Assembly (NCBI GenBank): GCA_005879795.1
Contig: VBKJ01000150.1
Coordinates: forward strand, 1 to 43,048
Length of the DNA stretch: 43,048 nt
Source of the DNA: Deltaproteobacteria bacterium
Lineage (GTDB): Bacteria; Desulfobacterota; Binatia; DP-6
Direction of reading: 5' to 3'
Part shown: positions 18,109-24,677 of the stretch, in pieces
Numbering within the stretch: the stretch's first letter is position 1
How the letters are laid out: each line of letters opens with the position of its first letter
The notes under the pieces: generated by a model
Told to the model about the DNA's origin: nothing
The model's database searches: none
Seen by the model: the letters and a program-made list of their open reading frames with translations, nothing else
Position numbers and translations under genes: made by a program

Positions 18109-18153
18109 ATGCCGAGATGTTTGAGCCAGCCCAGCAGGGGGAGAACGCAGTGA
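18109..18153 (+). other. Possible 14-codon leader ORF coupled to the HTH gene
   Basis: ATG 18109 follows GGAAGGAG by four bases, and its short frame ends in TGA at 18151-18153, which shares a base with ATG 18153 of the next gene (TGATG). The arrangement would allow translational coupling. The peptide (MPRCLSQPSRGRTQ) has no recognisable feature; chance occurrence is possible. Confidence 0.25.
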
Positions 18154-18731
18154 TGGCCGAGGCCGGGCCGATGGCCGGTGAGCGCGCGCTCATGCGCGCC
18201 GTGCTCGAGGACGCGATCCGGTGCCTCGTCGGTGAGGTCGGGCCTCGGTACCAGCGCGGGCGGCTCGCCGCGGAGGCGCGGGCGTGGATCGAGGGCGCCG
18301 ATCCGCACTGGCACTTCTCCTTCGAGAACCTGTGCGATAGCCTCGGGCTCGACTCCGGGCGCCTGCGCGCCCGGCTGCTGCGCGACGCGCCCGTGCCGGT
18401 AGCGGTCGACGGGCGCCAGCTCGCCGGGCGCGGCGTCCGGCCGCCCCGGGAGACGCCGGCCGAGGACGAGATCGTGCAGATGATCCGGGCGGGCCGTCCG
18501 CTGCGGGTGGTGGCGCAGACCTTCGGCATCAGCGTCTCGAAGGCCTCGATCCTGTCGCGTGGGCTCGCGAGCCGCATGAAGGCGGAGCGCGACGAGGAGA
18601 TCCGCCGCCTGCGTCTCGACGGCTGGACGCATCGCGCGCTCGGGGCCCGCTTCGCCCTCTCCCGCATCCGTATCATGCGAATCTGCGCGCGCCGCGGCGA
18701 GGCGCTGACCGAGGGCCGGACCGCGGCCTGA
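18153..18731 (+). CDS. HTH-containing probable DNA-binding protein
   Basis: A 192-residue protein in two parts. Residues about 7-75 (ERALMRAVLEDAIRCL ... WHFSFENLCDSLGLD) match a small domain often seen in deltaproteobacterial regulators, where a W.FSF.N.CE.LGLD segment follows an LL.AVL.DA.. helix; I know it from unannotated proteins only. The C-terminal part has two helix-turn-helix-like stretches, RPLRVVAQTFGISVSKASIL and GWTHRALGARFALSRIRIM, as in invertase/transposase-type HTH folds. DNA binding is inferred. The start could be ATG 18117 (12 residues longer); ATG 18153 is preferred because AGGGGGAG lies nine bases upstream. It is transcribed away from the Mla operon and ends 13 bases from the convergent nrtR stop. 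Confidence 0.7.
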   Translation: MAEAGPMAGERALMRAVLEDAIRCLVGEVGPRYQRGRLAAEARAWIEGADPHWHFSFENLCDSLGLDSGRLRARLLRDAPVPVAVDGRQLAGRGVRPPRETPAEDEIVQMIRAGRPLRVVAQTFGISVSKASILSRGLASRMKAERDEEIRRLRLDGWTHRALGARFALSRIRIMRICARRGEALTEGRTAA

Positions 18732-18744
18732 GCGCGTCCGGACG

Positions 18745-19452
18745 TCAGCTCCGTTGCGCCGCCGAGGCGGCGAGTATCTCGACCATCATCGGACGGCGCC
18801 GCCGGAAGGCGTAGAGCGCGGCCGGCCGGTGCGCCCCGCGCCGCACGCCGCCGGCGCGGGCGAGCAGCCCGAGCGAGAGGACCTTCTTGCGGAAGTTGCG
18901 CCGATCGAGCCGGCGCCCGAGGATGGCCTCGTACATCTCCTGCAGCTCGCCGAGCGTGAAGCTCGGCGGAAGGAGCGTGTAGACGAGGTTGGTGTACGCG
19001 AGCTTGGCGCGCAGGCGGCCGAGTGCGGTGCGGAGCACGGCATCGTGATCGTAGGCGAGGGGCGGCAGGCGTGCCGCCGGGCACCAGGCGACATCGGGGA
19101 ACGGCTCGCGCGCCCGACCCGAAGGCGCGCCGTCGGCGCTCCGACCCTGAAAGCGGCCGCCGTGCGGGATGAGAGCGAAGTAGGCGACCGACACGACCCG
19201 GCCGTGCGGATCGCGCTCGGGGTGGCCGAAGGTGTAGAGTTGCTCGAGGTAGATGCCGCGCACGCCCGTCTCGGCGGCCAGCAGGCGGCGCGCGGCGCCC
19301 TCGAGCGTCTCGTCGGCCAGTACGCGGCCGCCCGGGAACGCCCAGCGCCCGGCGAACACGCCGCGCTGGACGCGCACGAGCAGCGCCTGCAGCGCGCGGT
19401 CGAGGACCGTGAACACCGCCACGTCGACCGCGATCGCCGGCGCGGGGTTCAC
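18745..19452 (-). CDS. nrtR: NrtR-type Nudix-related transcriptional regulator of NAD metabolism
   Basis: A 235-residue protein: a Nudix-fold domain (about 1-145) and a winged-helix C-terminal domain (about 150-215; FTLGELQEMYEAILGRRLDR, NFRKKVLSLGLL, RPAALYAF). This layout is the mark of NrtR, which binds ADP-ribose and represses NAD biosynthesis genes. The Nudix box at 42-64 is degenerate: it keeps GxxxxxE and the following Arg and a late Glu, but the REUxEE core reads RLLAAE, so hydrolase activity is probably lost, as in known NrtR regulators. The gene starts with GTG 19452 in a GTGA overlap with the nadA stop, so regulator and target are made together. A plain Nudix hydrolase is the alternative, less likely given the wing domain and neighbour. 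Confidence 0.85.
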   Translation of the reverse strand: MNPAPAIAVDVAVFTVLDRALQALLVRVQRGVFAGRWAFPGGRVLADETLEGAARRLLAAETGVRGIYLEQLYTFGHPERDPHGRVVSVAYFALIPHGGRFQGRSADGAPSGRAREPFPDVAWCPAARLPPLAYDHDAVLRTALGRLRAKLAYTNLVYTLLPPSFTLGELQEMYEAILGRRLDRRNFRKKVLSLGLLARAGGVRRGAHRPAALYAFRRRRPMMVEILAASAAQRS

Positions 19453-20459
19453 CCGCCCAGCTCGAGCATGCGCTCGAGTGCCGCTGCGGCCCGCACACGC
19501 ACGTCCTCCGCGACGGTGATCTCCGGGGCCAGGTCGCGGAGCGCGTCGCGCGTCCCCTCGAGGGTGATCATCTTCATGTACTGGCAGAGCTTGCAGCTCT
19601 TGTAGAACTTCTTCTCCGGGACCTCGAGCAGCAGGCGGTCCGAGAGCCCGCACTCGGTCACGATCAGGAACTCACGCTCGGGGCTCTCCTTCGCGTAGCG
19701 CACCATACCGCTGGTGGAGAGGACGGCGTCGGCGAGGGCGAGCACGTCGGCGCGGCACTCGGGGTGCGCCAGCACGCGCACGTGCGGCAGCGCGCGGCGC
19801 ACCGCCGCGATCTGCTGCGGGGTGATCTGGTGGTGCACGTAGCAGTTGCCGTCCCAGGCGATGATCGCCTTCCGGGTCCGTGACTGGACGTAGTTGGCGA
19901 GGTTCCGGTCGGGCACGAAGAGGATGTGCTCGCTCGGCAGCGCCTCGACGACGCGGACGGCGTTGGAGGAGGTGCAGCACGCGTCGCACTCGGCCTTCAC
20001 CTCCGCGGTGGTGTTGACGTAGCCGACCACCGCGAGGTCGGGATGGACGGCGCGCAGCTCGGCCTTGCGCGCAGCCAGGTCCTCGGCCGTCACGCTGTCG
20101 GCGAGCGAGCAGCCGGCGCGCAGGTCGGGGAGGAGCACCCGCCGCGTGGGGTTCAGGATCTTGGCCGTCTCGGCCATGAAGTGAACGCCGCAGAAGACGA
20201 TCGTGTCGGCGTCTGTGCGGGTCGCCTGGCGCGCGAGCTCGAGCGAGTCGCCCACGAAGTCGGCCACCTCGAAGATCTCCGGGCGCTGGTAGTTGTGCGC
20301 CAGGACGACGGCGTTGCGGGCACGCTTCAGGGAGTGGATCTCGGCGATGGTGTCGGCCAGCGCGGCGCAGCGCGCGGGGCCGTAGTGCAGGTCGCCGAGC
20401 GGCGCGAACAGCGCCTCGAGGTCGGGGCCCGTGGGGGCGAGGGTGGTGGCAGCGGGCAT
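19449..20459 (-). CDS. nadA: Quinolinate synthase A
   Basis: A 336-residue enzyme that condenses iminoaspartate with dihydroxyacetone phosphate to quinolinate in de novo NAD synthesis. The 4Fe-4S cluster cysteines are recognisable: AGCSLAD (C117), ACCTSSNAV (C162) and KLCQYMKMITLE (C292). NYQRPEI, the YVNTTAEVKA segment and HPEC are also family hallmarks. nadB and nadC are not in the window. It leads a two-gene unit with nrtR, and a good sigma-70 promoter with an overlapping palindrome lies just upstream, so control by NrtR is likely (inference). It is divergent from bioB. Confidence 0.95.
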   Translation of the reverse strand: MPAATTLAPTGPDLEALFAPLGDLHYGPARCAALADTIAEIHSLKRARNAVVLAHNYQRPEIFEVADFVGDSLELARQATRTDADTIVFCGVHFMAETAKILNPTRRVLLPDLRAGCSLADSVTAEDLAARKAELRAVHPDLAVVGYVNTTAEVKAECDACCTSSNAVRVVEALPSEHILFVPDRNLANYVQSRTRKAIIAWDGNCYVHHQITPQQIAAVRRALPHVRVLAHPECRADVLALADAVLSTSGMVRYAKESPEREFLIVTECGLSDRLLLEVPEKKFYKSCKLCQYMKMITLEGTRDALRDLAPEITVAEDVRVRAAAALERMLELGG

Positions 20460-20478
20460 GGGCAGCTCGGAGGTTCGT

Positions 20479-20495
20479 GTATCTCGTACGCATAC
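20479..20495. promoter_or_regulatory. Candidate NrtR operator
   Basis: GTAT and ATAC arms separated by nine bases, overlapping the nadA -10 element and the probable transcription start. A repressor bound here would block RNA polymerase. The match to NrtR is by position and symmetry, not by a known motif. Confidence 0.35.
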
Positions 20496-20520
20496 TCGGC
20501 CCTCGCGCCCGCCGTGTCAA
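20492..20520 (-). promoter_or_regulatory. Sigma-70 promoter of nadA-nrtR
   Basis: On the minus strand a perfect -35 TTGACA (20520-20515), a 17-base spacer and GAGTAT (20497-20492) as -10. It ends 32 bases before the nadA start. Confidence 0.5.
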
Positions 20521-20585: not shown

Positions 20586-21635
20586 ATGAGCGGGCTCGAC
20601 GACACGGTGGCGGCGCTGGCCGCCGCGGGGCCGTACCGGGGGCTGGCCGAGCAGGCCCTCGCCGACCGGCCGCTCGCGCGCGCCGACGCGCGCGCCCTGC
20701 TCGACAGCCCGGAGGAGGACCTTCCCGCCGTGCTGTGGGCCGCCTTCGCGGCGCGCAGCCGGCACTTCGGCCGGCGCGTCAAGCTGTGCGTGCTCGAGAA
20801 CGCGCGCAGCGGCCTCTGCCCCGAGGACTGCGGCTACTGCTCGCAGTCCGCGGTGTCGACCGCCGACATCCGGCGCTACCGCCTCCGCCCCGTGGCCGAT
20901 CTCGTCGCGGGCGCCCGCCGCGCGGTCGCGAGCGGCGCGGGCCGCTACTGCATGGTGGTGAGCGCGCGCGGGCCGAGCGCGTCGGACATCGCGCACTTCG
21001 CGGGCGCCGCGCGCGCCATCCGGGCCGAGATGCCCGCGCTCGAGCTGTGCGTCTCGCTCGGCATCATGCAGGAGGGACAGGCGCGCGCGCTCGCCGAGGC
21101 GGGGGTCGACTTCGTCAACCACAACCTGAACACGAGCCGCCGCTTCTACCCGGCGATCTGCAGCACGCACACCTACGACGACCGCACGGCGACCGTGCGC
21201 AGCAGCGCCCGCGCCGGGCTCGGCGCCTGCTCCGGCGTCATCATCGGCATGGGGGAGACGCACGAGGACCTGATCGACGTCGCGGCCGAGTTGCGCGCGC
21301 TCGCGGTCGCCTCGCTGCCGGTCAACTTCCTCCACCCCATCGAGGGCACGCCGCTCGGCGAGCGGCCCACGCCGCCGGCGGCCGATTGCCTGCGCGCGCT
21401 GGCGCTCTTCCGGCTCACCAACCCGCGCGCCGAGATCCGGGCCGCGGGCGGGCGCGAGCGCGCGCTCGCCGGGGCCCAGGGCCTGGCCCTCTTCGCCGCG
21501 AACTCCATCTTCGTGGGGGGCTACCTCACCACGCCCGGCGAGGGTCCCGCGGACGCGCTCGCCATGATCCGCGCGCTCGGCTTCGAGGCGGAGGGCGAGG
21601 GGCGTCACGCCATGGACAGAGCGGCGCAAATGTGA
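20586..21635 (+). CDS. bioB: Biotin synthase
   Basis: A 349-residue radical SAM enzyme that inserts sulfur into dethiobiotin. The SAM cluster motif is CPEDCGYC (C78, C82, C85) followed by SQS; other signatures are CMVVSARGPS, ELCVSLGIMQEGQ, DFVNHNLNTSRRFYP, GVIIGMGET, NFLHPIEGTPL and LFAANSIFVGGYLTT. The residues for the second, 2Fe-2S cluster (Cys in the CMVVSARG and LCVSLG segments, Cys of SGVIIG region, Arg of NPRAEIRAAGGRE) appear intact. Only two bases separate AGGAGG from ATG 20586, which is close but no better start is seen. Other bio genes are absent from the window. Confidence 0.95.
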   Translation: MSGLDDTVAALAAAGPYRGLAEQALADRPLARADARALLDSPEEDLPAVLWAAFAARSRHFGRRVKLCVLENARSGLCPEDCGYCSQSAVSTADIRRYRLRPVADLVAGARRAVASGAGRYCMVVSARGPSASDIAHFAGAARAIRAEMPALELCVSLGIMQEGQARALAEAGVDFVNHNLNTSRRFYPAICSTHTYDDRTATVRSSARAGLGACSGVIIGMGETHEDLIDVAAELRALAVASLPVNFLHPIEGTPLGERPTPPAADCLRALALFRLTNPRAEIRAAGGRERALAGAQGLALFAANSIFVGGYLTTPGEGPADALAMIRALGFEAEGEGRHAMDRAAQM

Positions 21636-21686
21636 TGTGAGGCAGTCGCCGAGGTTCCCGACGAACATCCCGAGCAGGGGGTGGGC

Positions 21687-21893
21687 ATGCAAGAACGGCT
21701 GGCGCGGCGCTTCCACGCGCGTGAAGAGGACGAGGAAAAGGACAAGGATATCGACGACCTCGAGGACGAGGACCTCGATGAGGACGATGACCTCGAGGAC
21801 GACGACGACTTGGACGAGGACGACGACGAGGAGGAAGAGGAGGAAGAGGCTCGGGGCGCTAGGCCCCGGCCACCGTCATGCGCGCGATCTTGA
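21687..21893 (+). CDS. Small, extremely acidic protein
   Basis: A 68-residue ORF: a basic start (MQERLARRFHARE) followed by about 45 residues that are almost only Asp and Glu with occasional Leu in a regular DLEDED-like pattern, and a basic, Pro-containing end. No family is recognised. It could act as a nucleic-acid mimic, a metal or cation buffer, or a flexible partner, but this is guesswork. The start is ATG 21687 (GTG 21681 also in frame), after a G-rich ribosome site, 51 bases after bioB. Its last 35 bases overlap the 3' end of tldE on the other strand, and the low-complexity tract makes the reading frame hard to judge by codon bias; the opposite frame is a Ser/Arg run. Confidence 0.5.
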   Translation: MQERLARRFHAREEDEEKDKDIDDLEDEDLDEDDDLEDDDDLDEDDDEEEEEEEARGARPRPPSCARS

Positions 21894-23241
21894 GCGTCGG
21901 CGCGGCGATCGCGGAGCGCAACCGGAGGTCGCTCCCCACCATCTCGATGTCGCGCAGCATGCCGCGCAGGTTCCCCGCGATGGTGAGTTCCTCGACGGGG
22001 TGAGCGAGCTCGCCGTTCTCGATCCACAGCCCGACCGCGCCGCGTGAGTAGTCGCCGGTCACCGGGTTCACCCCGAAGCCGATCAGCTCGGTCACGTAGA
22101 GCCCCGAGCGCACCGACGCGATGATCGCCTCCGGCGCGTGCGGGCCCGGCTCGAGGACGAAGTTCGTGGGCGCCACGCCAGGCGCGTCGCCCACGCTGCG
22201 CGCCGCGTGCCCCGTGGTTCTGAGCCCGAGGCGGCGCGCCGAATACGAGTCGAGGAGGTAGCTCCTGAGCACGCCGCGCTCGACCACGACCCGGCGCTCT
22301 TGCCGCACCCCCTCGCCGTCGAACGGCCGCGACGCCGGGCCGGCGGGCCGGAGCGGGTCGTCGACCACGGTGACGGCGTCCGAGGCGACCTGCTCGCCCA
22401 GGCAGTCGAGCAGGAACGACATGCGCCGGTAGAGCGCCGAGCCGGCGATGGCGCCCGCCAGGTGGCGGAGGAGGCTCGCCGCGGTCTCGGGGTCGAAGAC
22501 GACCGGGCACGTGCAGGTGGAGGGGCGGCGCGCGCCCAGCCGGCGGAGCGCGCGGCGCGCCGCCTCGCGGCCGACCTCCGCGGGCGGCTCGAGAGCGGCG
22601 AGCTTCCGGTGCGCCGTGTACCACGAGTCGCGCTGCATGCCGCCGTCGCGCGCGGCGACCGGCACGACGGCCAGGCTCGCGGAGGAGCCGGCATAGGCGC
22701 CGGCGAAGCCGAGGCTCGACGCGTACGCGACCAGCCCGGCGTCGGCGCCGAACTCGGCGCCCTCGGAGTTGGTGATCTCGGGCGCGGCGGCGAGCGCGGC
22801 GGCCTCGGCGTCCCGCGCCCAGGCGAGCGCCTGCTCGGGCTCGAGCCGCTCGATCGCCGGATCGTGCAGGTCCAGGTCCGGCTGCGCCCCGGCGAGCTCG
22901 GCGGGGTCCGGCAGGCCGGCGTGCGGATCGGGAGTGGTCGTGCGCGCGAGCGCGACCGCGTCGCGGGCGAGCGCGGCGAGCCCCTCGGGGGTGAAGTCGG
23001 CGGTCGACACGATTGCGGTCGCGTTGCCGACGAAGACGCGCAGCCCGGCGCGCCGCTGGCGCGCGCGCGCGAGCTTCTCCACTTCGCCCAGGCGCACGCC
23101 GACCGCGAGCCCGTCACTCTCGACCGCCAGGGCGTCGGCGGCGCGCGCGCCGGCCGCGCGCGCGCGCGCGACCAGGTCGTACGCCAGCTCCCGCGGGTCG
23201 ATGTCGCCGCGCGCGCGAGCGCTCTCGTCGTGCGCGCTCAC
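21859..23241 (-). CDS. tldE: TldE/PmbA family protease subunit
   Basis: A 460-residue partner of TldD. TldD/TldE form a heterodimeric metalloprotease that trims unfolded leader peptides (microcin B17, CcdA are known clients). TldE-type sequence is seen in EITNSEGAEFG, LGFAGAYAGSSASLAVVPVA, RRPSTCTCPVVFDPETAASLL, NPVTGDYSRGAVGLWIENGEL and AGNLRGML. As expected for TldE it lacks the HExxxH metal motif. The GTG start at 23241 overlaps the tldD stop as GTGA. No peptide precursor gene is obvious next to it; the short exported peptide at 27.6 kb is the only small candidate in this half. Confidence 0.92.
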   Translation of the reverse strand: MSAHDESARARGDIDPRELAYDLVARARAAGARAADALAVESDGLAVGVRLGEVEKLARARQRRAGLRVFVGNATAIVSTADFTPEGLAALARDAVALARTTTPDPHAGLPDPAELAGAQPDLDLHDPAIERLEPEQALAWARDAEAAALAAAPEITNSEGAEFGADAGLVAYASSLGFAGAYAGSSASLAVVPVAARDGGMQRDSWYTAHRKLAALEPPAEVGREAARRALRRLGARRPSTCTCPVVFDPETAASLLRHLAGAIAGSALYRRMSFLLDCLGEQVASDAVTVVDDPLRPAGPASRPFDGEGVRQERRVVVERGVLRSYLLDSYSARRLGLRTTGHAARSVGDAPGVAPTNFVLEPGPHAPEAIIASVRSGLYVTELIGFGVNPVTGDYSRGAVGLWIENGELAHPVEELTIAGNLRGMLRDIEMVGSDLRLRSAIAAPTLKIARMTVAGA

Positions 23242-24677
23242 GGCCGCGTGCCGCCCACGGTGAGGCCGTCGATGCGCACCGTCGGCAGGCCGACCCCGAC
23301 CGGCACCGACTGCCCGTCCTTGCCGCAGGTGCCGATGCCCTCGTCGAGCCGCAGGTCCGCGCCCACGCGCGTGATGCGCGTGAGCACGTCGGGCCCGTTG
23401 CCGATGAGCGTCGCGCCGCACACCGGCCGCGTCACCTTGCCGCCCTCGATCAGGTACGCCTCGCTCGCCGAGAAGACGAACTTCCCGCTCGTGATGTCCA
23501 CCTGCCCGCCGCCGAAGTAGACCGCGTAGAGGCCGCGGTCGACCGAGCGGATGATGTCCTCGGGCGCGTCCTCGCCGGCCAGCATGAAGGTGTTGGTCAT
23601 GCGCGGCATGGGGAGGTGCGCGAAGCTCTCGCGCCGGCCGTTGCCGGTGGGCGGCATGCGCATGAGCGCCGCGTTGAGCCGGTCCTGGAGGTAGCCGCGC
23701 AGGATGCCGCGCTCGATCAGCACCGTGCGCTGCGTGGCCGTGCCCTCGTCGTCGACGTTGAGCGAGCCGCGGCGGCTGGCGAGCGTGCCGTCGTCGACCA
23801 CCGTGCACAGCTCCGAGGCGACGCGCGTGCCGATGCGGTCGGTGAAGGCGGACACGCGCTTGCGGTTGAAGTCGCCCTCGAGGCCGTGGCCGATCGCCTC
23901 GTGCAGGAGGACGCCCGGCCAGCCCGGGCCGAGGACGACCGTCATCGTGCCCGCGGGCGCGGCCGCGGCCTCCAGGTTGGTGAGCGCCTGCCGGGCCGCC
24001 TCGCGCGCGAAGCGCTCGGCGCGGCCGTCGAGCAGGGTGTCGAACACGAAGCGCCCGCCGCCCCCGTAGCTGCCCTGCTCGCGCCGGCCGCCGCGCTCCG
24101 CGATGCAGGTGACGCTCAAGTGCACGAGCGGCCGCACGTCGCCCACCACCGCGCCCGCGGAGGTGACGACCAGGATGACGCGGTACTCGAGCCCGATGCC
24201 GGCGAGCACGTTGGTGATGGAGGGGTCGATGGCGCGCGCGGCCGCGTCGAGGCGCTGGAGGAGCGCCACCTGGTCCGCGGGCGGCGTGTCGATGGGCGGG
24301 CGGGCGACCGGGTAGAGGTCGTGCGCGGCGGCGGCCGCGCGCGTGGCGGGGAGCGCGGCCGTCGCGCTGTGCTCGTCGGCGATCGCCCGGGCCGTGCGCG
24401 CCGCCAGCTCGAGCCGCTCGAGCGAGACCTCGTCGGAGTGCGCGTAGCCGCTGCGCGCGCCGGCGACCACGCGCACGCCCACGCCCTGGCTCACGTTGCG
24501 CGTGGCCTTCTTCACCACGCCCTCCTCGAGCGACGCGGTCTGGTTCACGCGGAACTCGAAGTAGAGGTCGGCGAAGTCGGCGCGCCGCTCGAGCGCCGTG
24601 CCCAGGATGCGCTCGAGCGCGCGGTCGGAGAGCCCGAAGCGCTCGTGGAAGAACCGCTCGGGCCGCACCACCTCCAT
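23238..24677 (-). CDS. tldD: TldD metalloprotease subunit
   Basis: A 479-residue catalytic subunit of the TldD/TldE protease. The zinc motif HEAIGH (259-264) with GLEGD is intact, and a Cys near the C-terminus (GIGTCGKDGQ) fits the third ligand seen in the E. coli structure. Other hallmarks: SYGGGGRFVFD, ESFAHLPMPRMTNTFM, GGGQVDITSGKFVFS and EAYLIEGGKV. ATG 24677; divergent from the DHH gene with a 111-base gap. Confidence 0.94.
   Translation of the reverse strand: MEVVRPERFFHERFGLSDRALERILGTALERRADFADLYFEFRVNQTASLEEGVVKKATRNVSQGVGVRVVAGARSGYAHSDEVSLERLELAARTARAIADEHSATAALPATRAAAAAHDLYPVARPPIDTPPADQVALLQRLDAAARAIDPSITNVLAGIGLEYRVILVVTSAGAVVGDVRPLVHLSVTCIAERGGRREQGSYGGGGRFVFDTLLDGRAERFAREAARQALTNLEAAAAPAGTMTVVLGPGWPGVLLHEAIGHGLEGDFNRKRVSAFTDRIGTRVASELCTVVDDGTLASRRGSLNVDDEGTATQRTVLIERGILRGYLQDRLNAALMRMPPTGNGRRESFAHLPMPRMTNTFMLAGEDAPEDIIRSVDRGLYAVYFGGGQVDITSGKFVFSASEAYLIEGGKVTRPVCGATLIGNGPDVLTRITRVGADLRLDEGIGTCGKDGQSVPVGVGLPTVRIDGLTVGGTRP

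Follow-up and report, generated by a model that had tools for sequence, protein, structure and literature searches.

We find that the regulator gene beside nadA in this 43,048-nucleotide stretch of DNA (hereafter the window, meaning the whole stretch analyzed) most probably encodes an NrtR repressor of NAD synthesis of the ordinary, autoregulating type, with nadA and nrtR forming an operon under a 23-bp operator; we put the probability of this reading at roughly 0.88. The protein fits the NrtR family in its domains, its impaired Nudix signature, its linkage to NAD genes and its conserved palindromic operator, and comparative genomics strongly supports the predicted nadA-nrtR operon with an NrtR-type repressor and an operator at the nadA promoter. 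The observations behind this are the domain make-up of the regulator, the coupling of the two genes, the conservation of the operator and its presence together with nrtR, and the finding of the same site before other NAD genes in relatives. It is a known kind of regulator and biologically ordinary, not novel in kind. The features of the locus are collected in Table 1.

Table 1. Genes and regulatory sequences of the nadA-nrtR locus (positions in the window).
Feature	Position	Strand	Description
nrtR	18745-19452	minus	235 aa, GTG start; Nudix-like domain and C-terminal winged helix
nadA, quinolinate synthase	19449-20459	minus	NCBIfam PRK09375.1-2, 405.7 bits (cut-off 294)
Operator, 23 bp	20473-20495	minus	GTATGCGTA CGAGA TACACGAAC (that is, GTATGCGTA-N5-TACACGAAC)
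GTAT-N9-ATAC	20479-20495	.	Covers the left arm of the 23-bp operator and part of its right arm
TTGACA	20515-20520	minus	Probable -35 element of nadA, 19 bp before the operator
bioB, biotin synthase	20586-21635	plus	NCBIfam bioB, 357 bits (cut-off 225); divergent neighbor

The two genes interlock at the sequence GTGA, in which the start codon of nrtR and the TGA stop codon of nadA have 4 nt in common. The NadA protein also scores above the Pfam NadA cut-off, and the regulator exceeds the cut-offs of both Pfam NUDIX (residues 9-138, 57.9 bits against 21.1) and Pfam NrtR_WHD (residues 158-216, 82.2 bits against 27). The coupled NrtR-nadA unit described in an earlier note on this DNA, made from the sequence alone, is therefore borne out by the overlap and by family scores for both proteins. 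Over its full length the regulator matches BtAraR (5bs6, E 7.5e-33) and SoNrtR (3gz5, E 4e-27), and its AlphaFold2 model (mean pLDDT 85.9, pTM 0.81) superposes on AraR (5dd4; Z 24.4, rmsd 2.4, 212 residues aligned) and on the NrtR-DNA complex 3gz6 (Z 23.4, rmsd 2.5, 213 residues aligned). Its best NCBIfam match is NF050029 (ADPR responsive repressor NtrR, an equivalog family), with 137.3 bits under a curated cut-off of 400, so that the NCBI rule would not give the protein the name NtrR. Among the surrounding genes, a 204-aa open reading frame (18117-18731, plus strand) converges on nrtR and has only a sub-threshold Sigma70_r4 match, with no family above cut-off. Beyond bioB lie a short frame (21636-21890, plus strand), whose tail is very acidic (runs of D/E) and sits over an array of 6- to 21-base repeats, and two adjoining genes for PmbA/TldD-type metallopeptidases (21862-24677, minus strand).

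The gene pair is widespread in the class of the host. Among 148 class genomes, our own included, 77 contain an NrtR homolog, and in 64 of these 77 the gene immediately upstream, in the same orientation, is nadA (64-100% identity); in one further genome, G133, a divergent nadA adjoins nrtR. For comparisons within the class we used 67 NrtR sequences, namely the 64 with nadA adjoining and those of G010, G044 and G054. Active Nudix hydrolases carry the signature GX5EX7REUXEEXGU, and at this place the window's NrtR reads G42...E48...R56-L57-L58-A59-A60-E61-T-G63, i.e., RLLAAE. L57 and A60 take the places of two of the three REUxEE glutamates, and we rejected an active Nudix hydrolase on the grounds that the intact signature is replaced by RLLAAE; the protein has probably lost hydrolase activity. 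Both the box alignment and Pfam agree with the earlier description of a degenerate RLLAAE box in a protein that keeps its winged helix. All three glutamates survive in none of the 67 class sequences, compared to 9 of 21 relatives that belong to other phyla, and the damage to the box varies among class members. In NrtR regulators a degenerate box is usual, and it is uninformative on the ligand bound.

For the operator, the earlier note had proposed the palindrome GTAT-N9-ATAC. This sequence occurs once in the 43-kb window, where shuffling gives an expectation of 0.03, and is the sole exact copy in the 4.1-Mb genome (the matches on the two strands being one palindromic place). We searched the nadA upstream regions of relatives with GTATGCGTANNNNATAC, consisting of the left arm of that palindrome and ATAC, and found conserved bases beyond its right arm (columns 18-23, mostly CGCAAAC or CGCAAAG). 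Considering that this flank lay outside the search seed and nevertheless proved conserved, we tested the axis of symmetry: over 61 aligned sites, 66% of the base pairs were complementary about the axis of a 23-bp site, compared to 46% about the axis first proposed and 10-41% about other axes. The true axis is thus 3 bp away from the proposed one, and on the strength of the conserved flank and the axis test we replaced GTAT-N9-ATAC by the 23-bp palindrome; the shorter sequence is present at the site, but in the wrong register. The consensus is roughly GTWWGYGTM-N5-KACRCAAAS, with G7, T8, A16, C17, C19 and A21 invariant over the 61 sites. The copy in the window is imperfect, with 6 of 11 pairs complementary; its leave-one-out score of 21.6 exceeds the 99% quantile of its shuffles, 5.2, and under a matrix built without the window it scores 24.8, the next-best place in the 43 kb scoring 3.8.

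We then scored nadA upstream regions with this matrix in a leave-one-out manner, using the 99% quantile of shuffled controls as threshold; the matrix and the tested loci come from one set of related genomes. A 23-bp site above threshold precedes nadA in 61 of the 63 nadA-nrtR loci with an upstream region, which belong to several families, compared to 0 of 23 in class genomes that have nadA and lack NrtR, the control set taking in the region before each of the 23 nadA genes that were found in the absence of an NrtR match (Fisher 6e-19, a value that is too small, as kinship was ignored). The contrast between NrtR-positive and NrtR-negative genomes upstream of nadA is nearly complete. A strict operator pattern likewise matches 52 of 77 NrtR-positive genomes and 2 of 71 NrtR-negative ones (p 3e-18, again too small because kinship was ignored); of the latter two, the match in G014 is at the edge of a contig and that in G072 overlaps a predicted ORF. 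As a control, the strict pattern read backwards matches 10 of the 148 genomes. The two loci of the 63 below threshold are L096, with a score of 4.4, and L057, where 112 bases of contig remain upstream. The upstream set was drawn up without L001, which is cut inside nadA, and without L025 and L026, which duplicate the contigs of L001 and L002, and L186 did not enter the analysis; the G133 locus with its divergent nadA (L053, 39% identity) was kept out of the 63 by a requirement of 60% identity and does carry a site. In other phyla, where scores were taken without a shuffle control and some loci are richer in A+T, the matrix found similar sites, for example with scores of 23.9 in L011 (Cellulophaga), 23.7 in L013 (Bacteroidia bacterium), 18.9 in L004 (Anaerolineales, 38 bp before the match), 16.4 in L009 and 11.2 in L010. 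In the literature collection searched, no paper pairs NrtR with “Binatia”, and one pairs it with Deltaproteobacteria.

The operator lies in the intergenic region between nadA and bioB, and bioB has the same divergent orientation in L002 and L027-L030, loci of the own family, which would suit a site that serves bioB, or one that arose by chance. Yet tblastn finds bioB in own-family loci only, while the site is kept in 61 of 63 nadA loci and its presence tracks nrtR; we therefore set bioB aside as a target and regard both of these explanations as extremely improbable. With respect to nadA, the spacing to a probable -35 element is regular: TTGAC[AT] occurs 18-20 bp before the operator in all six own-family loci having an upstream region (the window, L002 and L027-L030), and within 30 bp of it at 12 of 61 class sites, compared to 42 of 3,050 shuffles. 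From this spacing, the operator would fall over the -10 and start region of nadA, the customary position for repressor binding. A weak -10-like GAGTAT, 17 bp from TTGACA, overlaps the first four bases of the operator. As a scan with the sigma-70 consensus found no promoter at nadA, the -10 stays a guess, and the placement of the palindrome over the nadA -10 in the earlier note, while in agreement with the TTGAC[AT] spacing, is plausible.

Within its own genome, which is 99.56% complete, the operator has no second copy even with 3 mismatches allowed, and the matrix finds none at nadB (C113), at nadC (C176), or at five of seven places with NAD synthase candidates, those given as loci. A multi-gene regulon in this genome was therefore rejected, and with a single site the nadA-nrtR operon appears to be the whole regulon. 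The earlier note had suggested looking for further copies near other NAD genes and had named their absence as a refutation; there are none in this genome, but among relatives the site does recur before such genes, so that the missing second copy speaks only against a multi-gene regulon here. Strict sites precede nadB in G053 and nadE, which encodes a glutamine-type NAD synthase, in both G034 and G035; in G129 a single site, and in G134 two abutting ones, precede nadA on a contig other than that of nrtR. The two sites of G134 (L138:3572-3616) are oppositely oriented, and a divergent MFS-like ORF adjoins them. Two further sites in NrtR-positive genomes have no recognized NAD gene beside them: one in G006 (1724595; L136:3096-3118), operator-like, with a score of 23.8 and downstream of an alcohol-dehydrogenase-like ORF, and one in G076:C73, with a score of 9.8.

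Six genomes of the f16 branch (G134, G118, G119, G136, G137 and G138; loci L143-L148) differ in that their NrtR homolog, 59-63% identical to that of the window, neighbors SDR, KDPG-aldolase-like or ABC-type genes and not nadA. The last five of these lack both a nadA match and a strict site, and nothing scores above 4.9 in the loci examined. In this branch nrtR may have been relocated beside catabolic genes, the nadA of G134 keeping its two operators on another contig. Such neighbors would also suit a regulator that senses a sugar or another catabolite, with the linkage to nadA incidental. AraR of Bacteroides thetaiotaomicron is a regulator of this kind: according to PMC4666351 it controls arabinose genes and binds L-arabinose, and its response to arabinose is likewise given in PMC6800001. 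It is the best match of our protein in both sequence and fold, by a small margin over SoNrtR, and its Nudix box is also broken. Unlike AraR, however, our NrtR has nadA and bioB as neighbors with no linkage to arabinose genes, and a single genomic operator, at nadA. The nadA linkage in 64 of 77 genomes and the divergent nadA of G133, the operators before nadA, nadE and nadB, and the fact that both strict sites of G134 precede a nadA away from the contig of nrtR all argue against sugar sensing, which we consider very unlikely.

The identity of the effector is a separate matter. PMC4666351 and PMC6800001 describe characterized NrtRs as released from DNA by ADP-ribose, and NdnR of C. glutamicum as answering to NAD. 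By analogy with the former, ADP-ribose might be the ligand of our NrtR. Arg98 of SoNrtR, which contacts ADP-ribose according to PMC4666351, corresponds to His83 in our protein (pairwise alignment, with an offset in the entry's numbering), and the equivalent residue is arginine in only 18 of the 67 class sequences, compared to 18 of the 21 relatives outside this phylum. Together with the precedent of NdnR (PMC4666351), this would favor a variant with the same operon and operator in which NAD+, or another compound of the NAD pathway, acts as co-repressor; on the other hand, the rest of the RDP motif and the DH motif (R80, D81, P82, D135 and H136) is nearly invariant, and we regard a co-repressor as possible but on balance doubtful. 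It is also conceivable, if unlikely, that the sensor switched its ligand in the class as a whole and now reads NAD+ or another pathway compound in place of ADP-ribose, given that the Arg98 contact is mostly lost and the Nudix box broken in all 67 nadA-type sequences while the NAD operator is kept. The NAD-dependent feedback of the earlier note, which would correspond to the co-repressor variant, is a prediction.

Among known systems, SoNrtR of Shewanella oneidensis (PDB 3gz5, 3gz6 and 3gz8) shares with our NrtR the order of domains, similarity over the full length and control of NAD genes, with a fold match of Z 23.0-23.4; the two differ at Arg98, which is His83 here. MsNrtR of Mycobacterium smegmatis, as described in PMC6800001, adjoins the de novo genes nadA/B/C, is an autorepressor with an inactive Nudix domain, and has a 23-bp palindrome, GTTTTCGA-N7-TCGAAAAC. 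Our regulator resembles it in its linkage to NAD genes, its broken Nudix box, the 23-bp length of the palindrome and a predicted autorepression; unlike MsNrtR, our nrtR is linked to nadA alone, lies downstream of it and overlaps it, and the arms of the operator differ. NadQ of Agrobacterium (PDB 7q91-7q94) has a homologous winged helix and NAD-gene targets, with a lower fold match (Z 17.0-18.0); PMC5343134 describes its effector domain as dissimilar to that of NrtR and its operator as ttATRCTCannntGAGYATaa.

Taken as an ordinary NrtR repressor, the system would work as follows. The genes nadA and nrtR would be transcribed as one autoregulated operon, and NrtR dimers would bind the 23-bp palindrome, which follows closely on the TTGACA element and overlaps the promoter of nadA, thereby blocking transcription of nadA and of nrtR itself. 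A ligand reporting NAD turnover would fill the catalytically dead Nudix pocket, and the winged helices would shift and release the repressor from DNA. Binding of our NrtR to DNA, and a role in repression rather than activation, are predicted here from sequence.

In our genome the regulon would be close to minimal, as it appears to consist of a single operator and a single target operon. Across the class, the finding adds a group of mostly metagenome-assembled bacteria to those with an NrtR regulon and defines its 23-bp operator there, and the combination of a varied ligand pocket with a nearly fixed DNA site makes these proteins suitable for asking to which NAD-related compound NrtR responds.
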